Below, piece after piece: positions 3 through 19,573 of a stretch of 20,761 nucleotides of DNA (positions are counted from its first letter, which is position 1; each line of letters starts with the position of its first letter). Both the position numbers and the translations under genes were made by a program. The stretch is from a virus: the IMG/VR virus record IMGVR_UViG_3300025137_000378, positions 1-20,761 of that record, one strand, 5' to 3'. Under the pieces are notes generated by a model. That model saw only the letters and a list, made by a program, of their open reading frames with translations, made no database searches and was not told the origin of the DNA.

Positions 3-3000
3 ATGACAAAGAAAGGGTTGACGATTGATGACATCGTTCCCGACAGGAACAACGTCATTAACCTCAAACAAGTACAAAAAGCCGTACAAGCCAAGGACGC
101 AAACCCCAGCCCAGCGGCCATGCGAAACGAAGACCTCCTGATCAAGTACCTAGATCAGATGGGCGACGACGTACCACAAGATAACGTGCGTGCGGAACTT
201 GCGCTTGAGCTGGAGAGTGCAGACGTCGAAGACCCAAACGCCATATTGGCCATGTACGACGCTTTCATTGCCGAAAACAAAGCAGAGCAGACCGAACTAG
301 ACGAGCTGACCCAGATTGCCGAGCGGGCAGTTAAGGACTTTAAGCCGAACGCGTCGCAAACGAAACGGATACGCGACTACGCTAAAAAGCTAATGGAGCC
401 AGAAGATGGCAAAGCCAGCGGCTTTGACAGCGACACCGCAAACAGACTAGCCAAGCTGGCTATAGCAAAAGATCACTACGACCAACTCGATTTACCCGCA
501 GAGCAGATACCTACTGTCAGTATCGGTGGTCAGAAGGTTCCGATCCGCGACGTGATGAGCAAGGTTCGTCTGGACCCCCAAGCCTATGCTGCACAGCAAC
601 GTCGCATGGGCACCAGCTCTGCCATCGAGAGCGCGTCCGAACTCGTCGGCGCTGGCCGTAACGAAAACGGCAGGGTCATCGCAATGCTTCGCGGCGGCGC
701 ACGTCTTAACAAGACTGACAAAGCGAGAACGGAACACAAGACACTACTTGATCGTAACGAAAACTTTTTTATGGGCGAAAGCTATCTTGAAGAGGGACAA
801 GCGATCCAGAGGTCTACGGACAACATGGCCGCTAATGCTCGCAAGACCACGCTTGCAGAGCACTTGGTTCGCACAAAAATGGCACCGAACCCAAACGCTG
901 CAAAAAAGATGATTGGTGCGAAAGACGCGAAACCCACGGTCGCTGGTATTAAAGCCACAGCTTCCACAGAGGTGGGAGTGGGAGACATCGTATTCGTCGG
1001 CGGCAACCCAATTCCAGCACGAGAAGAGCTGCCCACAATCATTGGGTTTGAGGCTACAGGAAGCACAATCGTACACAGGCTGTCTGGCAAGCCAAGTCGA
1101 GTAAAGAAGGGTACTGTTGTCTTTGCTGATGGCAAGACAAAGCGCACATACGACAGCCCGCAGACCGTGTTAATCAAGCGTGACCCTAGCCTTCTCAAGC
1201 AAGACAGCAGACCAGCAGTCACAGAGACGAAAGACAGCACTGTTGACGGTCAAGTTATGGACGATCTAAGACGTCCAGACAGAGGGCTGGCACCAATCGG
1301 TGTGCCTCTTGCCAATGCTCAAGCACTTCTTGATCCTGCCAATGGCACACGTCTGGCGATTATCAAACACAAAGAAGACGCCAGCGACATTCGCATCATG
1401 CACCCACGACAAGCGGCAAACAACGTAACGCTTGAAAGTCTGGCGGGCAAAGCGGGCATCGAGAACTTTGAGGTAAGATACATTCAGTCCCATCATCGTC
1501 TGAGCGACACAATGACGGTTGATGCAAAGACGCGGCTGTTTAACGAAATCGCAGAAGACTTTATTCCTGTAGCGGGCGTGGAGTTTCAGCCACTAGGCGG
1601 CGTATTCATGTCAGGCAATGCCACTGGCCGTGGGTTCCCCACGTCGTCTGAGGGTCTTGGCAAAGTACCAATCAGCAAGTCTGACCTGACCGAACAAGAG
1701 ATGCTGGCGCTCGACCGCTTCTCGACCAAGCCAGTGAAGGACATGAAGAGCCTAAGTGCGGCTCAGATCGTCAACTACATAGCCAAAGCAGAGAACGCGC
1801 CCATCCCTAAAACCGAGAACGAGATGGCCGTCCTCATCTCTGACCTAGAACAGATGCACATGGTGCTACGTCGCGAGATACCAGAGGGTTACGTTAAGCC
1901 CGCTGGCGTCCGCGAGGAAGTAGCGGCAGAAATCCAGACGATCTTTAACAAGGTATCGCCAGAGGAAGGCGTTGCTGCAAAACGAATGATAGAGGGTCTT
2001 GGCGGCGACATGTCCAAAGCCCCCGCCTTTGATGAGCCGTCTGGCACTTTTCGGTACAACCCCAAGACAAACAAGATCGAGGGCACCGACCAGATTGCGA
2101 CAGCAGACAAGGGTGAACGCACGCCCATGCTCCTGCGCGAGACAGCGTCGTGGGCATACGATAACATTATGACACCAGAGGATCGTCTGGAGTTTTGGGG
2201 TGCGCTCAAGCGGCAGATTGCCAGCGGAGACACAACCCTTCTGGCCCCTATGAAAGATTATAAGCCCAATCAGTCAGGCGCAGCGCGTCGCATCTTTGCT
2301 GACAACTTCACATCGTGGGCGCTAGAGAACCGTTCGGCTGGCCACTTTAAAGACACTGGCTTCTGGCCCAAGCTGCAACGGTACATCAAGGGCGTCTTTG
2401 ATAGATACTTCTCCAAGAAAGCAATCGACCCAGAGCTTGAGCCAATCTTTGCCAAGGTGCTGCCGGACGGAGACATGCACTACCGTAAGTTCGATGACTT
2501 CAAAGAGCCAAGAAGTGCAGCGGGAATTGTTTACAAGGGCTACCAGCTAAAGCTCCAAATCGCAGAAGAAAATATAAAAGAAGCGATCACCGCTTACGGC
2601 CCCAAGCGTGACGGCAGTGATACCAGAGTTGTCAACGCGTTCGAAGATTTGAGGCGCGTCTACGCGGGCATCGTTGCTAATGTTGGGCCGCGCTCTGACA
2701 AGGCAGTTTACGGAGCGAAAGCGTTTTACAAAGACAACACGCTCATGCCGTTCAAGCGGTACAAAGACATCTACACTCAGCGGTTCGCTGACCTAAACCA
2801 AATGATCTACAACGGCAACAATGGGCTGGTAGATAACCGCATCAGTGACGCCGAGTTTGCCACTACCGAGCAAGAAGGGTGGCGCGTCGAAGCTGACCAG
2901 TCCGAAATTGCGGGCGCATTGATTGACGCGTACTATGAGGGTCACAAGAAATTTACCCCAACAGCAAAACCACCAAGCAAGATTGTAAACGAAGACTTCA

Positions 3001-6000
3001 CAACCTTGGAGTATTCAATTCTGCTTGCACAAAATATCCTCAAGGCTGCATACGTCACCGCTGAGAACGGAAGCCAACTATCTACTCCATTTACCGTAGT
3101 CAAGAAAAGCAAAAAGAAGAACAAGCTGGTTGAGACGACAATAGTCAAGCACGCCAACGCCAAACAGCGGCAAGCAGACGCTATTAAAAAAGCCCTTACT
3201 GGCAAAGAGAAAGGGCAAAAGAAAAGGGTCGGAGCAGGAGACGACCCATATACAACAAAGCTGCGGGTGATGAACCAGCAGCAGCTTGAGGAAGAGTTCA
3301 GAGCTAACTCCACCGATAAGAGCCGCCAAGAACAAATCTCTTGGATGATGTATGAGCGCGACAACAACGCTTACGAAGGCAACCTTTCGCACACGAACAT
3401 TCCTCGCGGCGACATCCCACAAGATTGGGCAAGGTTTAGCGAGCAAGATTTCTACCCTATGCTGCGCGACGCTTTGTATGAGGGAGACGGCAACACGGTT
3501 GACGCCATCATCTCCGAGCATACGCGTCGTATGCAGGCGAAGAAGTACGGTAAGAACAAAATACCTCAGTACCTCCGAGCGTCCTATGTGCGTCAGCGGA
3601 TCAAGGCTGAAGTAGACGCAGGCGCAGGCGCGTACACGTCGGCTGGCATACCGCCCAGTGCGCCGTTTAATGTCCGCAACATCCTGTCCTACCTTACGCA
3701 CCGCGACCCGAAGGTAAACTACACCCAGCGGACAATGACTTATCGGATGATTAATCTGATGGGCAAGGCAACACGAGACGTGCTTGACGACACCAACATT
3801 ATGGACGCTTCAGACGTAGCCCGTCTCGCTGGCGTTGACCCGATGGGTATGAAGAACGTCGCTATGGATTTTCGTGGCGATCAATTCAAGAAGCTCCGCT
3901 CGGACAGCCGCCGTCTGGCCATTGGCCTCACTAAAGGCAACACCAACCCCTTCGACGTAATCCACGAAATCACACACACAGTGGTGCGTGCAGGCATGCT
4001 CCCCAAGCAGGAAATGGACGCGGTTGTTGAGCTGTATCGCAGCGCAGATGACGGGCTGAAAACACGTATTAACAAGGACTATGGAGGTAAATACCCAGAT
4101 GCAAGTGAGGCACAGAAGGAGCTTATCCTTGCCGAAGAATGGTTCGCGGAAAACCTCACAAAATACATGGGCGAGCGCGTGGCCAGAGGCGACATACTCA
4201 AAGCCCTCAACGGTGGAGACATGGCCTCTCTCAGCCTCAAGAACTCTTTCCACTCAGCGATAGACAGGGCAATCGAGTACGTTGCCTACATTGTCAACGG
4301 TCTCATTGGCCGTAAGACAGTGAAACAAAACTTTCGTCGCCTTATGTTCTACGGCAACATGTTCGAGCAGCCATCCAAGGCACCATTTGCTACTATGGGC
4401 CGAAGAGCCAGAGCAGTGCCCACAGCCTACGCTGGCCAATACGCCAGTGACGTCTTGCGACAGTCGAACGGTACACGTCTGGCCCGCATTAAGAAGTACA
4501 CAGGCGGCGGCAAGTTCAGCGAGAACGAAGATGGCCCGATAACTTACTTCCATGCCACTCCGAACGGCGGCGCGTTTAACCGCGAGACGAACCCAGACGT
4601 CGTCATGTCTCAGGGTGGTGGAGCATACGGACCTGGCATCTACATTTCGCCAGACGCCCAGACGTTAGACAGCGTCTATGCCAGACGACCCACCATCGGC
4701 GCAATGACGTCTATGATCAACACATCCAAGGCGTCAGACGAGATCAAAGAAGAGCTGCGCGAAGCTGCGGTAGAGCTGGGCGAAGTCAGGTCTTTGCTGT
4801 CAGAGAAACGCCGTGCTTACGCAGAAGCAAGTGACACATTAGAGGATTACGACCAGCAGCAGGGTAGCATGCTTGGCGGTATCCGTATGGAAGACTTGGA
4901 TGAAGAAAGCGTAGCCCTGCTCAAGTACGAAAGCGAGCAATACGCCAGAACAAAAGACGACTTGGCCGAAGAGATAGATGACCTACTGGCCAATGAGGAA
5001 GCGATCAGCGACTTGATGGATCGATATGGTATCGTGCCAGAGCCGCTAGTTATGCCGCTTTATACGCGTATGATGAACACTGCCGACTTCTCCAGCTCAA
5101 CCAAGCACGGGCTGGACGAGCCGTTTATGCAGGCGATCTTCCGTAAGCTCATTGACGACGGCGTCTATACACAGCCTGACCTTGAGAAGCGGATCGTTGG
5201 CATGCCGCAAACTGGCTACAACGGAGACAGAACTTACAACATGCTGGCCGATCTTTTTGCAGACACAGGCGTGTCCCGCACACAGGCCAAAGCGTCAGTG
5301 AACGGCATGCTTGAGGACATGGGATACGACAGCCTAAAGACCACACACATGAACACTTTGACCGAGCGTGAAGCCTTTGGCGACATGAGCGAGGAAGGTC
5401 TCAGAGCGGGCACACAGAAAGTCTACGACGCGTTCCTGCTCTTCAATCCAGAGCAGGCCAAACATGTTGAAGCCAAGGCTTTCGATCACGACGACGCACG
5501 CATGTATTTTCGTGATACGGGCACCTCCCCCGCTGGTTTCAACGGCGCAGTCGTGACCGAGATGGCAGAAGGTAACATCGACAGTCTGGACCCGAACAAG
5601 GCAACCGAGTACTTGGACGATCTGGAAGCCAAGGGCACGCCAACCGATTTGGTGGACGCGATGGGGTCAATCATGCGCGAGCGCGCGCTGTCACCTCGTG
5701 AGGAAACCGCAGTACGCAAGCTCGGCCCACTCGGCTTCCTCAAGTCTCAGTCTGGCCGTATGGAAACAATGGGTATGAACTGGCTGGGTGGCTGGTACAA
5801 GCAGCACTTCCCAGACAACAGCCAAGCCTTTGCGTCCAAGTTTATGCCACTGCACAAGGCGATGAAGGATTTGCCTGACGCAGACGGTAAGTTCAAGACT
5901 TGGCGCAAACGCAACGCTGGCCTCTACGGCAAGGAAGCAGCGCAGCCAGAAAGCCATAGCCGCATCGTCAAGGCGCTGCGATTTGGCCCGACCAGCACGT

Positions 6001-8225
6001 ACTTCAACCGCTTGAGTGCGAGCGAGCAGATGGTTGCGAACAGAATACGCAAGGAGTTCAACGACGAACATGAGCGTATGAGAGCAGCAGAAATGTTCGT
6101 GGGCTTCAGACGAGATTACGTCCCGCAAATCTGGAAACCAGAGACAATTCGCAATGACGAGGCTGGCTTTAAGATGGGCATGGCCGAATACTACAGGCAG
6201 GAAAAAACCTCTGCTGGCGTCGTATTCACTCAAGACGAACTCAAAGAGTTTGTCGATAGCATGTATGACAAACTGGCCAATCTCGATGCAGAGGACGGCG
6301 TAAGCACGTCGTCGTCTCGCGGGTCATCCACAAACTCCCCTGCTTCGTCTCTGGATTACAGCAGAATGATTGAGCTTGAAAAGTATCCACGAGCTATGGA
6401 GATGCTGGACGGCTACCTAGAAAACAATCTTGAAGCCATGCTAATCAAGTCCTTTGAGGCCAGCACGCGTCGCCTGCTTCACGTCGAGAAGTTCGGCCTT
6501 AACAGCCACGGCGTGTCTGACTACATCACCGCGTCTGAGGGTGGTGCCAAGGGCATCGCCAAGCTACTCAGCACTAACAAAGAATACGTTAAGAACTTCC
6601 GTGTAGTTGACGGCGGCGAAGGTGTTACTGAGGTCGATCTCAAAGAGAGCACGCTGATGCCCTTCGCGAACAAGCCAGAGGCAGCACCCAAATTTGTTGA
6701 CGCTCTGATCCAAGTCTACAACTCACCCGCTGGTGGGCCAATCGCACGAGACATGCTCATGCGTGCAGCCGTCACCACGTCTAGCGGCGCGATCAGCAAG
6801 ACGTATGAACGCAGAGTGGACGCAATCATGGGTGCGCTTGAGGACTTCAAGGGTGTGGCCACACCGATGACGAATGACGAGCACGGCTTCCTAGAGAACG
6901 CCATGCGCGTTGCACGCAAGCAACCAATCAACGGTGGCGTTGCGAACGGTAAGGTCGCCTTGCGTACCAGCCGCACCCTGCGGTCAATCAACAACGTCTC
7001 TCTGCTTGGCTTTACCACCCTCACCTCTTTGGGTGACACGGTGCTGCCAATGATCAGAGCTGGATCGTTCGGGGCGTGGGCGAAAGGCATCAAAAATTTG
7101 CAAGACCCAGCCTATGCCACGGCCATGAAAAATGTTGGCGTTGCAATGGAAAACATCGTCCACGACCGCATGGTGCATATGTACGGCGGCGTGGACAGCA
7201 AGTTTTCAAACGCCTTCTTTAACGCTACGATGTTGACGCCTTGGACGGATATGATGCGCCAGATGGCTGGGGCTGTAGGGCATGAAGCCTTTAAGACTTA
7301 CCAACTCAAGACGGTGCAAAGCTACAATCCAAGCGCCACACTTGAACAGCAGCCTCGTGCCTACAAGATTGCCTACCGTCAGCTAAAGCAGTTTGGCTTA
7401 GAGAAGTATGCGATGGGACAGTCGATGGGGGGCGTATCACTTTCAGACAAGAGCTTGCTTGAGACAGACAAGAGCTTGCGTATGGGTGTACTGCGGTTCG
7501 CAAACGAAAGCGTGTTTCAGCCAAACGCAGACGACGTGCCGATCTGGGCGCAGACGCCGCTCGGCGCACTGGCCTTTCAGCTCAAGTCCTTTCCCCTGAT
7601 GATGGGCCGTATGTCTGGCCACATACTCAGAGAGGCGTTCCCTAAGAGCGGCCAGCCGCGCAACATCAAGCCACTCCTCTACTTCCTTTCACTTGGCCCT
7701 GCCGCTGGTGCGGGAGCAGCAGCCATCAAGGACGTCGTGCAAATGCGCGGCGGTGAGGACGAACGGTCGGCAGACGTGCGTGTGCGGAACGCTATGAAGT
7801 TTGCGGGTTACGACGAGAAGGTTCACGGCAACGAGCAGGACTTCCTCGGCTGGTATCTCGAAGGCTTAATGGTCATGGGTGGCTTTGGCCTTATCGCAGA
7901 CATCGTACACTCAGCGGCAAGTCAGGTGGATAACGGAGCCTACGGGCAGCAGCGCGTCTGGTCGTCTCTGCTCGGCCCGACATACGGTCTTGGTAACTCG
8001 GCGTTTACGACGCTCGGCGGTGCCAAAGATGCAATGTTTAACTCAACGCCAGAAAGCAACGCAAAGGAACGGTCAGCCGTTCGTGAAGTTGTCACCAGAA
8101 CCCCCGTGCTTGGTGGCATAAGAGCGTTCCGCGAAAACGTAACAGACGCAGTGGCAGGAGAACCAAGCAGTTCGTCTGGCGGTCGCGGCGGGTTCAGCGG
8201 AAGTTTTAACGGATCATGGGGATGA
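3..8225 (+). CDS. Giant polyvalent / injected virion-type protein with metallopeptidase and ADP-ribosyltransferase-like domains
   Basis: The 2,740-residue frame is probably a virion protein delivered with phage DNA, of the 'polyvalent protein' type that carries several effector domains. Visible: a zinc-metallopeptidase motif HEITH at 1321-1325, followed by EEWFAEN (about 1378-1384) as candidate third ligand region; an ADP-ribosyltransferase-like domain from about 1513 to 1840, with YFHATP (1515-1520), GPGIYISPD (1543-1551) and a late FNPEQAK segment (about 1814-1820); a Ser-rich linker near 2101-2118; a C-terminal region typical of large phage internal proteins (ALAFQLKSFPL, about 2524-2534); two hydrophobic stretches near 2557-2575 and 2616-2640; and a Gly/Ser tail. 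ATG at 3 overlaps a possible upstream TAA (TAATG), suggesting coupling, but the frame has no stop before the window edge, so the true start may lie outside. The virion role is inferred from size, architecture and position before the lysis genes. Confidence 0.85.
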   Translation: MTKKGLTIDDIVPDRNNVINLKQVQKAVQAKDANPSPAAMRNEDLLIKYLDQMGDDVPQDNVRAELALELESADVEDPNAILAMYDAFIAENKAEQTELDELTQIAERAVKDFKPNASQTKRIRDYAKKLMEPEDGKASGFDSDTANRLAKLAIAKDHYDQLDLPAEQIPTVSIGGQKVPIRDVMSKVRLDPQAYAAQQRRMGTSSAIESASELVGAGRNENGRVIAMLRGGARLNKTDKARTEHKTLLDRNENFFMGESYLEEGQAIQRSTDNMAANARKTTLAEHLVRTKMAPNPNAAKKMIGAKDAKPTVAGIKATASTEVGVGDIVFVGGNPIPAREELPTIIGFEATGSTIVHRLSGKPSRVKKGTVVFADGKTKRTYDSPQTVLIKRDPSLLKQDSRPAVTETKDSTVDGQVMDDLRRPDRGLAPIGVPLANAQALLDPANGTRLAIIKHKEDASDIRIMHPRQAANNVTLESLAGKAGIENFEVRYIQSHHRLSDTMTVDAKTRLFNEIAEDFIPVAGVEFQPLGGVFMSGNATGRGFPTSSEGLGKVPISKSDLTEQEMLALDRFSTKPVKDMKSLSAAQIVNYIAKAENAPIPKTENEMAVLISDLEQMHMVLRREIPEGYVKPAGVREEVAAEIQTIFNKVSPEEGVAAKRMIEGLGGDMSKAPAFDEPSGTFRYNPKTNKIEGTDQIATADKGERTPMLLRETASWAYDNIMTPEDRLEFWGALKRQIASGDTTLLAPMKDYKPNQSGAARRIFADNFTSWALENRSAGHFKDTGFWPKLQRYIKGVFDRYFSKKAIDPELEPIFAKVLPDGDMHYRKFDDFKEPRSAAGIVYKGYQLKLQIAEENIKEAITAYGPKRDGSDTRVVNAFEDLRRVYAGIVANVGPRSDKAVYGAKAFYKDNTLMPFKRYKDIYTQRFADLNQMIYNGNNGLVDNRISDAEFATTEQEGWRVEADQSEIAGALIDAYYEGHKKFTPTAKPPSKIVNEDFTTLEYSILLAQNILKAAYVTAENGSQLSTPFTVVKKSKKKNKLVETTIVKHANAKQRQADAIKKALTGKEKGQKKRVGAGDDPYTTKLRVMNQQQLEEEFRANSTDKSRQEQISWMMYERDNNAYEGNLSHTNIPRGDIPQDWARFSEQDFYPMLRDALYEGDGNTVDAIISEHTRRMQAKKYGKNKIPQYLRASYVRQRIKAEVDAGAGAYTSAGIPPSAPFNVRNILSYLTHRDPKVNYTQRTMTYRMINLMGKATRDVLDDTNIMDASDVARLAGVDPMGMKNVAMDFRGDQFKKLRSDSRRLAIGLTKGNTNPFDVIHEITHTVVRAGMLPKQEMDAVVELYRSADDGLKTRINKDYGGKYPDASEAQKELILAEEWFAENLTKYMGERVARGDILKALNGGDMASLSLKNSFHSAIDRAIEYVAYIVNGLIGRKTVKQNFRRLMFYGNMFEQPSKAPFATMGRRARAVPTAYAGQYASDVLRQSNGTRLARIKKYTGGGKFSENEDGPITYFHATPNGGAFNRETNPDVVMSQGGGAYGPGIYISPDAQTLDSVYARRPTIGAMTSMINTSKASDEIKEELREAAVELGEVRSLLSEKRRAYAEASDTLEDYDQQQGSMLGGIRMEDLDEESVALLKYESEQYARTKDDLAEEIDDLLANEEAISDLMDRYGIVPEPLVMPLYTRMMNTADFSSSTKHGLDEPFMQAIFRKLIDDGVYTQPDLEKRIVGMPQTGYNGDRTYNMLADLFADTGVSRTQAKASVNGMLEDMGYDSLKTTHMNTLTEREAFGDMSEEGLRAGTQKVYDAFLLFNPEQAKHVEAKAFDHDDARMYFRDTGTSPAGFNGAVVTEMAEGNIDSLDPNKATEYLDDLEAKGTPTDLVDAMGSIMRERALSPREETAVRKLGPLGFLKSQSGRMETMGMNWLGGWYKQHFPDNSQAFASKFMPLHKAMKDLPDADGKFKTWRKRNAGLYGKEAAQPESHSRIVKALRFGPTSTYFNRLSASEQMVANRIRKEFNDEHERMRAAEMFVGFRRDYVPQIWKPETIRNDEAGFKMGMAEYYRQEKTSAGVVFTQDELKEFVDSMYDKLANLDAEDGVSTSSSRGSSTNSPASSLDYSRMIELEKYPRAMEMLDGYLENNLEAMLIKSFEASTRRLLHVEKFGLNSHGVSDYITASEGGAKGIAKLLSTNKEYVKNFRVVDGGEGVTEVDLKESTLMPFANKPEAAPKFVDALIQVYNSPAGGPIARDMLMRAAVTTSSGAISKTYERRVDAIMGALEDFKGVATPMTNDEHGFLENAMRVARKQPINGGVANGKVALRTSRTLRSINNVSLLGFTTLTSLGDTVLPMIRAGSFGAWAKGIKNLQDPAYATAMKNVGVAMENIVHDRMVHMYGGVDSKFSNAFFNATMLTPWTDMMRQMAGAVGHEAFKTYQLKTVQSYNPSATLEQQPRAYKIAYRQLKQFGLEKYAMGQSMGGVSLSDKSLLETDKSLRMGVLRFANESVFQPNADDVPIWAQTPLGALAFQLKSFPLMMGRMSGHILREAFPKSGQPRNIKPLLYFLSLGPAAGAGAAAIKDVVQMRGGEDERSADVRVRNAMKFAGYDEKVHGNEQDFLGWYLEGLMVMGGFGLIADIVHSAASQVDNGAYGQQRVWSSLLGPTYGLGNSAFTTLGGAKDAMFNSTPESNAKERSAVREVVTRTPVLGGIRAFRENVTDAVAGEPSSSSGGRGGFSGSFNGSWG

Positions 8226-12327: not shown

Positions 12328-12427
12328 ATGTTCCTCGTTTTTTTCTGGGCGACATCATTGACGCCCTTATGACACCCACGTATGTATCTCAATAGTGACA
12401 CCCATGCAACACCCTAAAGGAAAAAAA
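12328..12427. promoter_or_regulatory. Divergent control region between the recombination and primase operons
   Basis: On the plus strand TTGACG (12358-12363), 17 bp and TATGTA (12381-12386) form a plausible sigma-70 promoter. The -10 read on the minus strand is TACATA, preceded at 17 bp by a weak TTGCAT (12409-12404), so two promoters may share one -10. Four octamers lie here on the plus strand: TGACGCCC 12359-12366, TGACACCC 12370-12377, TGACACCC 12396-12403 and CAACACCC 12407-12414. Each pair is spaced exactly 11 bp, and the two pairs flank the shared -10. Binding would be expected to control both promoters. Confidence 0.55.
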
Positions 12428-12619
12428 ATGAAGCAGTTAAACATTGAGCGATTGATCAAGGATTTAGGTGGGGCCGCTGCCGTGGCCGAAGCAACAGGCG
12501 TGGTTCGAACGCAGCCGTATGCGTGGATCAGACGTGGCAGTATCCGAACGACGATACTTGAACGGATCAAAGAGACGCACCCGCTTATCGACATCAACCA
12601 ATACTTTGAGGAAGTCTGA
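12428..12619 (+). CDS. Small HTH DNA-binding protein (Cro-like)
   Basis: The 63-residue protein is nearly all a helix-turn-helix: LIKDLGGAAAVAEATGVVRTQPYAWIRRGSI is given in part as GGAAAVAEATG (helix 2) and RTQPYAWIRRG (helix 3). It resembles Cro/YdaS-type phage regulators. ATG 12428 is chosen over the in-frame ATG at 12395 because AAAGGA stands 5-10 nt upstream of it and because the earlier start would cover the operator-like repeats. It ends with TGA directly abutting the primase ATG, so it is co-transcribed with it. It is a leading candidate for the protein that binds the neighbouring repeats. Confidence 0.75.
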   Translation: MKQLNIERLIKDLGGAAAVAEATGVVRTQPYAWIRRGSIRTTILERIKETHPLIDINQYFEEV

Positions 12620-14524: not shown

Positions 14525-14672
14525 TAGTGCCGTGCGGACGGATTGCTGTGACCTTTGCGTCGGGGCAATGCCGTCTGACCGCATCAATCACGGCAGCGAT
14601 TTGTGGATATTTATCTCTGTTGGATTTTTTATTACTCAAAACGGTACAACGCTTTACTCTATTCGCTTTCAC
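14469..14672 (-). CDS. Possible small gene convergent with the primase end
   Basis: The 67-codon frame opens with GTG at 14672 (an in-frame TGA lies just before it) and reads SNKKSNRDKYPQIAAVIDAV, then RRHCPDAKVTAIRPHG and ADDLVVVEPD, a composition that looks genuinely protein-like. Its last 56 nt overlap the primase 3' end on the other strand. A good minus-strand promoter (TTGACT, 17 bp, TACAAC, 14755-14727) points at it. The weakness is the absence of a clear ribosome site before GTG or the TTG at 14642. If not coding, the transcript could be an antisense or regulatory RNA. No family recognised. Confidence 0.5.
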   Translation of the reverse strand: MKANRVKRCTVLSNKKSNRDKYPQIAAVIDAVRRHCPDAKVTAIRPHGTTKFPTIHEADDLVVVEPD

Positions 14673-14805
14673 TCAATCGTTGATCACGCCCAAGGCGTGA
14701 GCAACTCAATCGCTACAAGCTCCTGCGTTGTACCGTTCTTGGCCCGATAAGTCAACACCCTTATGACACCTTGACAGTTTTAATTTGACACCCTAGTTCG
14801 CGCAT
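14525..14805. promoter_or_regulatory. Structured intergenic region with inverted repeats, hairpin and operator-like sites
   Basis: A perfect 13-bp inverted repeat (AACGGTACAACGC 14640-14652, complement 14725-14737) encloses a direct repeat ACTCAATCG (14671-14679, 14704-14712), which itself flanks a 7-bp hairpin with CAA loop (14684-14700). A minus-strand promoter reads TTGACT (14755-14750), 17 bp, TACAAC (14732-14727), its -10 lying in the right arm. A plus-strand TTGACA is at 14771-14776, with only a weak -10 (TAGTTC) 17 bp on. Operator-like octamers: CAACACCC 14753-14760, TGACACCT 14764-14771, TGACACCC 14786-14793, in register at 11 and 22 bp. A replication origin next to the primase gene is possible but unproven. 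Confidence 0.55.
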
Positions 14806-15099
14806 ATGGCAAGGGTTGAACTGACCGAGGATGATCGTAACTGGCTGCGTGAGCGACACTGGATGGAGACGTATCCAGACATGGCCTTACGCATTGGCTG
14901 CTGCGTGGATACAATCAAGCGCATCCTAGTTCGCGAAGGTCTGCAAGAGTTTGACGGGGCCAAGTACCAAGTCAAACGCCACAACCACGTACGCCAGTGG
15001 AACAGACCATGCCTCGACTGCCAGTCAACAGAGCTGCGACCGCGCATGTGGTTCTACTGTACGCCCTGTCGCAAGAGGCGAGGGCATACAGATGAGTAA
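14806..15099 (+). CDS. HTH plus zinc-ribbon protein
   Basis: The 97-residue protein has an N-terminal helix-turn-helix-like half (YPDMALRIGCCVDTIKRILV, about 23-42) and a C-terminal zinc ribbon, Cys69-x2-Cys72-x12-Cys85-x2-Cys88, with a basic end. It likely binds DNA and may be an early regulator or nuclease accessory. No good ribosome site is seen before ATG 14806. The TGACACCC site ends 12 bp before the ATG, so a promoter at TTGACA 14771 would give a nearly leaderless message. An 8-nt ATGAGTAA overlap joins it to the nuclease gene. Confidence 0.68.
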   Translation: MARVELTEDDRNWLRERHWMETYPDMALRIGCCVDTIKRILVREGLQEFDGAKYQVKRHNHVRQWNRPCLDCQSTELRPRMWFYCTPCRKRRGHTDE

Positions 15100-16576: not shown

Positions 16577-16696
16577 AATCACCGCCATTTCTCAATAGTG
16601 TCGAGTATTGTCATGACTTTTTTCTACGTTTTTCGAATTTTCAAAGAAAAAAATTAAACACGACTTAAAAACCTAGTGACAATACTCGACACTATA
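16577..16696. repeat. AT-rich element bounded by perfect 19-bp inverted repeats
   Basis: The arms ATAGTGTCGAGTATTGTCA (16595-16613) and its complement (16677-16695) are exact over 19 bp and enclose 63 bp of AT-rich sequence. Inside, TTTTTTC (16618-16624) pairs with GAAAAAA (16646-16652), giving a nested stem. It lies between two convergent genes, and the right arm ends 1 bp before the stop codon of the minus-strand winged-helix gene. Neither arm is followed by a T-run at the outer side. A bidirectional terminator, an origin, or a binding site for a dimeric protein are all possible. No target duplication flanks it, so it does not look like a transposon remnant. Confidence 0.75.
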
Positions 16697-16939
16697 TTAT
16701 CCCACACCCCAATCCTTGAGGTACTTGTGGAAGTTCGGACCCTTCTCCCAGCCCCCGTGTTTAAGTTTCGTTAGGAACCTCGCGTGACACAGTTTGTTAA
16801 AATGCTGCGAGACGACACCCTGAGTGACACCCCTGCTTGCAGCTACGTCACCCTGCCGCAGCGGTGCCCCCTTCATCTGGCTCAGTAGCCTCGATGTTAT
16901 TATCGCTGTCTTGATCTCCGTTGGACTGAACCTGTACAT
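16697..16939 (-). CDS. Winged-helix DNA-binding protein
   Basis: The 80-residue protein reads FSPTEIKTAIITSRLLSQM, GDVAASRGVTQGVVSQHFNK and LCHARFLTKLKHGGWEKGP, a MarR-like winged helix with recognition helix around GVTQGVVSQHFNKL and a wing near KLKHGG. It is a good candidate regulator. The start at 16939 overlaps the preceding gene by 92 nt in another frame; Met22 (16876) is an alternative but would remove helix 1. The gene contains CGACACCC and TGACACCC 12 bp apart (16813-16832), and its stop codon touches the 19-bp inverted repeat. Confidence 0.65.
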   Translation of the reverse strand: MYRFSPTEIKTAIITSRLLSQMKGAPLRQGDVAASRGVTQGVVSQHFNKLCHARFLTKLKHGGWEKGPNFHKYLKDWGVG

Positions 16940-17298: not shown

Positions 17299-17495
17299 CT
17301 CAGAACCTCGTGTAAAGCGTCGTACTAAATAATCTAGGGTGTCAAATCTCGAATATTTCAGCACACCTTTTGTGCTCAATCAAGTCTAAATACGGTCGTT
17401 AATTTGCCTAATTTGTGTCACGACACACGAATTTAGACACCCTTCTGCTCGTCTACTTACACCCAAGAAAACAACTTAGGCATATCAATAGGTTG
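17299..17495. promoter_or_regulatory. Operator/dyad cluster beside the integrase, possible attP or promoter region
   Basis: Contents: GGGTGTCA 17337-17344 inside a 14-mer shared with 14783-14796 (opposite strand); AGCACA-N5-TGTGCT 17360-17376; GTCTAAAT/ATTTAGAC 17384-17391 and 17431-17438; TGTGTC-AC-GACACA 17414-17427; AGACACCC 17435-17442 and TTACACCC 17457-17464, 22 bp apart. It lies after the integrase stop and before the small minus-strand operon, so it should hold that operon's promoter. An attachment site next to int would be usual, but no core can be identified without the host junction. Confidence 0.5.
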
Positions 17496-18749
17496 TCACT
17501 TGTCTGGTATGTACGTCTCAGGGTGTGTATTTTCGTCGTCATCTTCCCCCATCAGGGTAGCTGTTTCCTCTTGTGACAGAGCGTTTGAGAGGTTAATTCC
17601 AAGCGCGGATGCGTCAACTCTATCTCGTTTTGTCGTGGTATTACAGCCACTTAACTCGTTGTGGTTGCGCCCACCCCCACTCCCAACGGGTACGGAAACA
17701 TGCGTTTCGTGTGTCAATTTTGTGCCAATCGACACCCGTCCACCATCCAGCAGATCGACCGTGCTCGCCAGATGAGACGAACCCAAATGCGCGTAGCGCA
17801 TCACCATCGTCAAAGACATGTGGCCCAACAAATCGGCCACCGCTTTTAGCGTCGCGCCATTCTGGACAAGATGACTGGCGAACGTGTGCCGCATGTCGTG
17901 ACATCGAAAGTCCTCAATGCCCAACCCCTCAATCACTGGTATCGTGAACCGATAAAGATCACTCTTCGTCCAGCGTCTCAACCCGATCCGCTTTTGGTTT
18001 GTGAACAGGGCACCCTTCATCTTGGCTCTGCGCTCAACCATTGGCCTGATCCTCGGATGCAGTGGCACGCGCCTAGCTCTCAGCTTTCCGCTCGACCCCT
18101 TGCGTGTCCTCAGTATCACCTCACCGCTCATAACGTCGGTGTGGTTCAGCGCGAACGCCTCACCCAACCGAGCGCCCGTGAAGAACAGAAACGATACAAC
18201 GTCTTTGCTGTCCTGCGTCGGCATCGCATCAATAAAACGATCACGTTCCTCCACATCCAACCAGCGGCATCGCCCCTCGCCATCACTTGGCTTGTCGAAC
18301 TTAACGTCTGGCACTGTCACGCCCTTGCCCCTGACGTGGTTGAAGCAAGCCTTTATGCTGGTCATGTAACGTCTAATCGTGCTGCCCTTGACCCCCATCG
18401 AACTAAAGTATCTGTCCACCTCAAGCGTGGTCAACTCGCCCACTTCCTTGTGGCCAAAGGCACGGTCAAATCGAGTGAGGTATCGCATACTGGCATACCC
18501 CACCCCATCGGGCCTCGCGGCGAACATTCGTATCACGTCGCCCACCGTCGTAACGTCAGACGTTGTGGCTGGCGCATCAACCTTCTGCGCCTCGGCCATT
18601 ATGATGTCGGCCATCTTCTTGCTGGCCCATGCCTTCTGGTGAAATGTGTGGCCCGTCGTCTTTCGAAGGCGGACCTTCTTCCCATCGTGGCGGGTAATCG
18701 TACCCACCACTTGCCAGACGCCTTGTCGTAGCTTTAAGCTAACTGTCAT
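17496..18749 (-). CDS. int: Tyrosine recombinase (phage integrase) with long C-terminal tail
   Basis: The 417-residue protein would integrate and excise the phage. An N-terminal arm domain (1-60) precedes a SAM-like core-binding domain (about 66-155). The catalytic domain shows Arg194 (TGARLGEA), Lys217 (RTRKGSSG), His284 and Arg287 (HDMRH), His310 (LLGHMS) and the nucleophile Tyr319 (MVMRYAHL), so it should be active. A tail of about 80 residues after DLLDGG (332-337) is polar, with Gly- and His/Asn-rich parts and an acidic end (GEDDDENTHP). Most relatives end soon after the Tyr. GGGGTG stands about 5 nt before ATG, inside the overlapping LuxR-type gene. Confidence 0.93.
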   Translation of the reverse strand: MTVSLKLRQGVWQVVGTITRHDGKKVRLRKTTGHTFHQKAWASKKMADIIMAEAQKVDAPATTSDVTTVGDVIRMFAARPDGVGYASMRYLTRFDRAFGHKEVGELTTLEVDRYFSSMGVKGSTIRRYMTSIKACFNHVRGKGVTVPDVKFDKPSDGEGRCRWLDVEERDRFIDAMPTQDSKDVVSFLFFTGARLGEAFALNHTDVMSGEVILRTRKGSSGKLRARRVPLHPRIRPMVERRAKMKGALFTNQKRIGLRRWTKSDLYRFTIPVIEGLGIEDFRCHDMRHTFASHLVQNGATLKAVADLLGHMSLTMVMRYAHLGSSHLASTVDLLDGGRVSIGTKLTHETHVSVPVGSGGGRNHNELSGCNTTTKRDRVDASALGINLSNALSQEETATLMGEDDDENTHPETYIPDK

Positions 18750-19194
18750 TTGTCACCCCATGAATTGCTTCGTAAAACGGATCAGGCTCTTCGTAGTTTT
18801 CGTCCCAATCTTTTGGCAAACCCCTTGTCATTCTGATGTACGTGTCGGGGTCAACCTCGTTAAACGGCACCAGACACTTAGCTACTATTGATGCGCGAGA
18901 CGACACCTGTAACTTCTTCATCAGCGTCCTTACGTGAACCTTGGCCGTGTTGACCGTCACTCCCAAACGCTCGGCAATCTCTTCGTTGCTTGCGCTCCGC
19001 AACAACATCTGTAAACAGACATGCTGCTTGATCGTCCAGCCATGCAGCAAATGTGTAGCGTCGTGGTGATGCTTCGTTTGAGCTTGTGGTTGCGTCGGCA
19101 TTGGTGTTGTCGTCGGCTTGCTATCATCCATCAAACTTAATTTCATAATTAAGTGGTCGAGTTTATTCTCGATCCGATCTAGTTGCGTGCTCAT
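18739..19194 (-). CDS. Stand-alone LuxR/GerE-type HTH regulator
   Basis: The 151-residue protein has a short N-terminal coiled coil (STQLDRIENKLDHLIMKLS), a Pro/Gln/His-rich linker, and a full GerE-type HTH (about 52-107: NEEIAERLGVTVNTAKVHVR then LMKKLQVSSRASIVAK). It lacks an autoinducer-binding or receiver domain, so it is probably always competent or regulated by partner or amount. ATG 19194 is chosen because AAAAGGG lies 6 nt before it; the frame is open to a GTG at 19218. It overlaps the integrase start by 11 nt, so integrase translation is probably coupled to this regulator. A role in the integration decision is inferred from that. Confidence 0.8.
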   Translation of the reverse strand: MSTQLDRIENKLDHLIMKLSLMDDSKPTTTPMPTQPQAQTKHHHDATHLLHGWTIKQHVCLQMLLRSASNEEIAERLGVTVNTAKVHVRTLMKKLQVSSRASIVAKCLVPFNEVDPDTYIRMTRGLPKDWDENYEEPDPFYEAIHGVTNDS

Positions 19195-19405
19195 TGCGTA
19201 CCCTTTTGGTTTTGTCACGGAGCGACCCTACGTGCATTGCTGCCATCTCTTGGCATCCAATAGTCATGGTCGCATCCTTTCTAAGGTGCTTCAAAATTGG
19301 TGCGCCTTTCGGTGGGGCTGTTGGCCCATTGGCCCACTGGGTGGTTGCGCCAGACGCTGCGACCGATGGCGTAGTAGTCGCAGCCGCCGCCGCCATGCTT
19401 TGCAT
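19163..19405 (-). CDS. Doubtful small Ala/Thr-rich protein
   Basis: A frame from ATG 19405 (open to a TTG at 19447) encodes about 80 residues: MQSMAAAAATTTPSVAASGA, then a region with APILKHLRKDATMTIG and a basic end. It overlaps the LuxR-type gene start by 32 nt. There is no good ribosome site. Its composition could be a frame artefact in an otherwise empty leader. It is listed because it fills most of a 380-nt gap and is oriented with its neighbours. Confidence 0.3.
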   Translation of the reverse strand: MQSMAAAAATTTPSVAASGATTQWANGPTAPPKGAPILKHLRKDATMTIGCQEMAAMHVGSLRDKTKRVRNEHATRSDRE

Positions 19406-19573
19406 TTCTTGGTTTGCCTGTGATCCGGTATGCTCACCATAGCGCAAAAAAACGACGTGGTTTTTCGCTCTTGAAAACGGCGAGCCTTTACTTACTGTGA
19501 TCGTATCAATAACCTGTCTCCCACTTATTACGTCTTATGTGTATCTCTAGGGATACACTAGAGTGCAGAGATG
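19406..19573. promoter_or_regulatory. Regulatory gap with three dyads upstream of the LuxR/integrase unit
   Basis: An 18-bp near-palindrome AAAAACGACGTGGTTTTT (19448-19465) centres on ACGT. Two overlapping dyads follow: GTGTATC-N6-GATACAC (19539-19558) and CTCTAG-N7-CTAGAG (19545-19563). The second pair sits next to the stop of the gene ending at 19574. Such dyads suit a dimeric repressor controlling the leftward regulator/integrase transcript. I see no consensus sigma-70 promoter with both boxes and correct spacing here. Confidence 0.45.

Follow-up and report, generated by a model that had tools for sequence, protein, structure and literature searches.

The repeated octamers that mark the early control regions of this phage probably resolve into two operator classes. 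A 20-bp dyad, GTGTAT-N8-ATACAC (class B), would be the operator of a phage-encoded LuxR-family protein, and the other octamers would be half-sites with an ACACC core (class A), read by phage regulators; on the sequence comparisons described here, we give this reading a probability of about 0.6. The window (the whole stretch of DNA analysed, 20,761 nucleotides) is, judging from its genes and their order, DNA of a marine, temperate, alphaproteobacterial phage of the CRP-810 type. Its prim-pol is 66% identical, over 99% of the length, to the primase of Roseobacter phage CRP-810. The two share the gene order Sak4-like, Cro-like HTH, prim-pol, two small genes, winged-helix, integrase and LuxR, with the prim-pol, Sak4-like, integrase and LuxR genes syntenic, and the synteny of primase, Sak4, LuxR, int and cobST described for the CRP-810-type family is common to the window (PMC11288001). 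Phages of this type are temperate, found ocean-wide and in their majority equipped with an integrase; CRP-810 integrates at tRNA-Thr, and LuxR is present in 107 of 251 related genomes (PMC11288001). A word search of that paper found LuxR mentioned, and operators, promoters or a repressor for CRP-810-type phages absent. The largest gene of the window is a 2740-aa open reading frame (3-8225). Searches returned no tRNA in the window, Rfam matches there only to microRNAs and lncRNAs at chance level, and no confirmed relatives among prophages sought in GTDB genome contigs by primase plus LuxR. Gene calls in the relatives' contigs are automatic, and several of these contigs are fragments.

The octamers and the genes next to them are placed as follows, in window coordinates:

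12328-12427, unstranded: site 1, a 100-bp divergent control region between a Sak4-like gene (minus strand) and the Cro/YdaS-like 63-aa gene with prim-pol (plus strand), from open reading frames and family matches
12359-12366, plus strand: copy a, TGACGCCC, overlapping a TTGAC -35-like hexamer (12358-12363) with a putative promoter role
12370-12377, plus strand: copy b, TGACACCC, an exact match and putative class A half-site
12382-12401, unstranded: weak class B dyad, ATGTAT-CTCAATAG-TGACAC, with 9 of 12 arm positions (3 mismatches)
12396-12403, plus strand: copy c, TGACACCC, exact, and right arm of the site-1 class B dyad
12407-12414, plus strand: copy d, CAACACCC, 11 bp past copy c, overlapping a leftward TTGCAT -35-like hexamer (12404-12409)
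12428-12619, plus strand: 63-aa Cro-like HTH protein (HTH63), with a weak PF15943 (YdaS) match and Xfaso1 Cro and N15 Cro as nearest solved folds
14748-14795, plus strand: site 2, putative class A copies at 14753, 14764 and 14786 (11 and 22 bp apart), upstream of the gene at 14806
16697-16939, minus strand: winged-helix (ArsR/MarR-like) gene, from profile/family match and gene order; a further candidate reader of the repeats
17333-17346, minus strand: site 3, minus-strand copy, AGGGTGTCA / ATTTGACACCCTAG, from word search
17435-17464, plus strand: site 3, pair AGACACCC (17435) and TTACACCC (17457), 22 bp apart, in the int-proximal region

The initial annotation had listed ten copies of a single octamer. 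All ten coordinates are right, but TGACACCC stands for a family: only four copies are exact (12370, 12396 and 14786 on the plus strand, 17337 on the minus strand), four carry one mismatch (12359, TGACGCCC; 14764, TGACACCT; 17435, AGACACCC; 17457, TTACACCC) and two carry two (12407 and 14753, both CAACACCC). The longer words it described are real, a 13-mer common to the first two loci (12364-12376 and 14758-14770) and a 14-mer common to the second and third (14782-14795, and 17333-17346 on the minus strand). A fifth exact copy, absent from that list, lies at 16825 (plus strand); since this copy and a GACACCC at 16814 fall inside the coding sequence of the winged-helix gene on the minus strand (codons GVTQGVVS), we rejected both as control sites. 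Shuffled sequences lead one to expect 0.59 exact octamers in the window, where there are five, a number reached in 0 of 100 shuffles. No 6-mer is more over-represented in the non-coding DNA of the window than ACACCC, which occurs 20 times in the window; once small genes that the initial gene calls lacked had been added, 8 of these occurrences fall between genes, where 1.7 would be expected (p=1.6e-4). The motif is thus not equally frequent inside genes, the intergenic excess being found in the window, G001, G002, G003 and CRP-810, although it is absent in G013, G015 and G005. Most likely, the octamers are cis-regulatory half-sites in early control regions, to be read by the phage's own regulators.

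What relatives conserve is the core ACACC/GGTGT, not the full TGACACCC, and comparison among them appears to resolve the octamers into the two overlapping elements, ACACC half-sites and the 20-bp dyad. Class A takes the form either of direct ACACC repeats at about 11 or about 21 bp or of a 14-bp dyad, ACACC-N4-GGTGT. Spacing by one or two helical turns (10-11 or 20-22 bp) recurs in relatives: across 21 related contigs, in which intergenic DNA makes up about 11% of the total, direct pairs at 10-11 bp are found 8 times between genes and twice within them, and pairs at 20-22 bp 12 times and twice, some of these counts being inflated by near-duplicates from sister contigs. Direct pairs no more than 60 bp apart number 26 against 3.3 in shuffles. 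The N4 dyad occurs 6 times in intergenic and once in genic DNA; neighbouring spacers show no comparable peak, and the intergenic inverted matches with N12 are mostly one site repeated in sister contigs. The gene arrangement around site 1 is the same in relatives, and a 21-bp pair recurs there in 11 of 31 primase clusters; at the position of site 2, pairs at 20-21 bp are also present in L005, L006, L007 and CRP-810. The proposal that repeats in phase with the helix mark the divergent control regions is supported by their conservation in relatives, and these regions cover the recombination, replication and int-proximal operons.

Could the repeats be mainly TTGACA-like -35 hexamers, belonging to divergent sigma-70 promoters and hardly serving as operators? 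Copies a and d do overlap TTGAC/TTGCA hexamers, the one at copy a being conserved in the sister lineages L003, L005, L006 and L007, and AAGTCAACACC at site 2 contains the reverse complement of TTGACT, with a -10-like hexamer 17 bp further on in lineages inspected by eye. However, the conservation of ACACC reaches beyond TTGACA and extends to GGTGTA arms, and neither the helical spacing nor the N4 dyad is explained by promoters; a consensus sigma-70 scan of the region does not rise above chance, so that all -35 and -10 assignments given here are tentative. We consider this explanation improbable. A single -10 hexamer common to both site-1 promoters was dropped, TATGTA being a poor fit to TATAAT and the promoter scan lending no support. 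The position of copy b reads TTGACACC in all sister lineages.

The initial annotation had also raised phosphate control, in which host PhoB would act on these promoters through Pho boxes. The likeness is superficial and consists of a repeat of 11 bp and of GTGTCATAAGGGCGTCA at site 1: two CTGTCAT repeats at 11 bp are not above background, the window has 13 Pho-box-like sites where shuffled sequences have 17.3, and the best Pho-box matches (of 14 positions) have four mismatches at site 1, five at site 2 and six at site 3. TGTCA is not conserved across lineages, and the conserved core is GGTGT/ACACC, not CTGTCAT. PhoB control is accordingly very improbable.

Arm sites of the integrase were considered for site 3; they would leave sites 1 and 2 unexplained. 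Near the integrase, a 14-bp palindrome, TGTGT-N4-ACACA, lies at 17414-17427, with equivalents in G001, G002 and G004, its centre varying between relatives. Beside prim-pol, a perfect 13-bp stem (14640-14652 / 14725-14737, 72-nt gap) has counterparts of 8-14 bp in 28 of 29 lineages and of at least 10 bp in 25 of 29 (3.9% in shuffles), with arms that differ yet stay complementary; it is a candidate replication origin or structured RNA. A 29-nt inverted repeat, 86% complementary, lies between two gene ends (16595-16623 / 16667-16695), in place of which the sister contig G001 has a GC-rich hairpin.

The class B dyad is found in its perfect form upstream of luxR:

18739-19218, minus strand: LuxR-family (GerE) protein, 159 aa, with a predicted N-terminal helix (residues 6-29) and the GerE domain at about 63-121
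19539-19558, unstranded: perfect class B dyad upstream of luxR, GTGTAT-CTCTAGGG-ATACAC, matching at all 12 arm positions

In a matrix scan, the top genome-wide match falls upstream of luxR in the window, G001, G002, G004, CRP-810, G010, G011, G025, G005, G008, G009 and G006; this ranking applies to every LuxR-bearing contig that reaches far enough and is descriptive, the matrix having been trained partly on these same sites. Because of this overlap, we turned to a held-out set of luxR loci, among which 24 of 30 have a dyad with at most one mismatch within the upstream 450 bp, where sequence elsewhere in these loci leads one to expect 0.09. After dereplication, 15 of 20 held-out regions carry such a dyad with a spacer of 8, while every other spacer from 0 to 20 gives 0 or 1 and the reversed control gives 0. 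Besides luxR, CRP-810 has dyads at 1707 (cobS, of cobST), 9569 (int-proximal), 14359 (site 2) and 16971 (site 1). The site-1 dyad of the window, with a score of 9.9, does not exceed the shuffle maximum alone, and its support comes from synteny, dyads one or two mismatches from the consensus standing at the same place in CRP-810, G002, G003 and G004. Neither of the near-complete, LuxR-less G013 and G017 has a dyad site above shuffles in the matrix scan. LuxR was not detected in G015 either, yet this contig has a 12/12 GTGTAT-N8-ATACAC at cobS (29545-29564). A small open reading frame may separate the dyad from luxR in the window, so that luxR may come second in its transcript.

The protein itself belongs to the GerE family (PF00196, E=3.1e-10, above the cutoff), and GerE folds lead a PDB search with it, although no E-value falls below 0.001. 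No sensor domain was found in it by profile, predicted structure or fold search: the roughly 60 residues before GerE form one predicted helix and a low-confidence stretch, not an autoinducer-binding domain, and GerE is followed by a C-terminal tail. The quorum-sensing role suggested for it (PMC11288001) is therefore not supported, GerE being the only domain found in it. Its recognition region, N-T-A-K-V-[HY]-V-R, is nearly invariant, as is the dyad. This conservation, the location of a conserved inverted repeat near the protein's own gene and the lack of good dyads in G013 and G017 make LuxR the natural candidate for class B, which is most likely the autoregulated operator of this protein. The initial annotation had counted a LuxR-type protein among candidate regulators, a choice strengthened by the family-wide dyad upstream of luxR and its overlap, at site 1, with the copy at 12396. 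As in the lux box, TraR box and NarL 7-2-7 operators, a GerE-domain protein here has an interrupted dyad close by, about 20 bp long, and the half-site containing TAC and the apparent autoregulation are also those of LuxR/GerE operator systems. The lux box has different arms and a 6-bp gap, against GTGTAT/ATACAC with 8 bp between them in the window. Unlike LuxR/GerE systems (with NarL/FixJ-type HTH), the phage protein has those few residues before GerE and no autoinducer or receiver domain that could be found. VqmA of vibriophage VP882, which appears in the fold search (PDB 7dwm), is likewise a phage-encoded GerE-domain regulator, but binds its ligand through a separate sensor domain (PMC8284805), none being seen in the window's LuxR.

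Are both classes read by the same protein? The initial annotation had inferred one regulator covering replication, recombination and the int-proximal operon; the data fit two overlapping operator classes, with LuxR and the 63-aa protein both candidate readers of class A. In a single-regulator arrangement, for which some NarL-family regulators offer a precedent, LuxR/GerE would bind the dyad together with extra direct half-sites placed a turn or two from it. In CRP-810, L145, L162 and others, site 1 does have a GGTGTC copy 21 bp away from the GGTGTA arm of its dyad. Site-1 ACACC copies number 0, 0, 0 and 1 in the four LuxR-less clusters among the 19 scored, compared with a median of 2 (rank test, p=0.008; Fisher, 0.018), which, like the HTH63 comparison below, rests on few independent events; the four clusters occupy scattered tips of the primase tree, not a single clade, and LuxR-less L192 and L180 are nested beside LuxR-bearing relatives. 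However, ATACA is invariant in 44 of 44 class B arms and differs from TGACACC, where TACA is not kept, so that A and B may be sites of different proteins. A LuxR-bearing SAR11-like clade (L008, L019) and L164 are also poor in ACACC, and held-out luxR promoters show no preference for flanking ACACC. A common regulator for both classes, and with it binding of class A by LuxR, is possible but doubtful.

The other candidate is the 63-aa protein encoded next to site 1. Its Cro-like assignment is structural: the model has a pLDDT of 94.9 and matches Xfaso1 Cro and N15 Cro with probabilities of 0.97-0.99, though with E-values that are not significant, and its YdaS match stays under the PF15943 cutoff (20.8 bits versus 30). 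Class A could consist of operators for this protein alone, in a divergent switch like those of lambda or CP-933P. Its gene abuts the densest cluster of copies, its nearest folds are Cro proteins, and the 14 bp of ACACC-N4-GGTGT are the size of a Cro operator. Before R-T of the recognition helix, ACACC-rich lineages have V or A and ACACC-poor ones Q, and in two separate lineages the change to Q goes along with 0-1 copies. In CP-933P, the divergent PaaR2/YdaS region in which YdaS works spans 97 bp, with direct repeats that overlap inverted ones (PMC8630535), much as the 100 bp or so of site 1 beside its YdaS/Cro-like gene; the repeat there is GTTTAGTAA, however, and the partner is a repressor/toxin-antitoxin locus instead of a Sak4-like recombination gene. 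Against exclusive reading by the 63-aa protein, L183 and L192, LuxR-less and ACACC-poor, possess it with V, and G016, a partial contig, retains ACACC copies where HTH63 was not found. We regard this exclusive version as plausible, with somewhat less than an even chance, and binding of class A by the 63-aa protein as such as close to an even bet. The presence and absence data support the 63-aa protein and LuxR each as a possible reader; the former would be the likeliest, failing which LuxR or another factor would take its place, and class A may also be read by both the 63-aa protein and LuxR.

From the computed enrichment, spacing, dyad and dyad position upstream of luxR, we infer the binding protein and the sign of regulation for a circuit with two operator classes. 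LuxR/GerE would regulate its own promoter through GTGTAT-N8-ATACAC and, in at least some relatives, also the cobST, int-proximal, site-2 and recombination/replication promoters. At luxR and cobST, probable -10 regions and the dyad overlap, so that repression is the probable effect of binding, and LuxR would thus repress its own and its target promoters. The octamer at 12396 would be a degenerate arm of the class B dyad at the divergent promoter of sak4 and the Cro-like gene and primase. The LuxR dyad would there meet class A sites, with two regulators competing as in the YdaS/PaaR2 region of CP-933P (PMC8630535).

More speculatively, and in our view doubtfully, a sensorless GerE protein may, through a new dyad, control luxR, cobST and the int-proximal, recombination and replication genes as master regulator of a regulon common to the family, cooperating or competing with a Cro-like protein on interleaved, phased half-sites, in a lysis-lysogeny switch unlike CI/Cro. 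The dyad and the domain picture together argue against the phage LuxR as a quorum-sensing receptor. Since the family carries a specific 20-bp site ahead of luxR and cobST is among the predicted targets, the function of phage LuxR can be tested directly, and these predictions can be checked in CRP-810 and its host FZCC0198, both of which are cultured.
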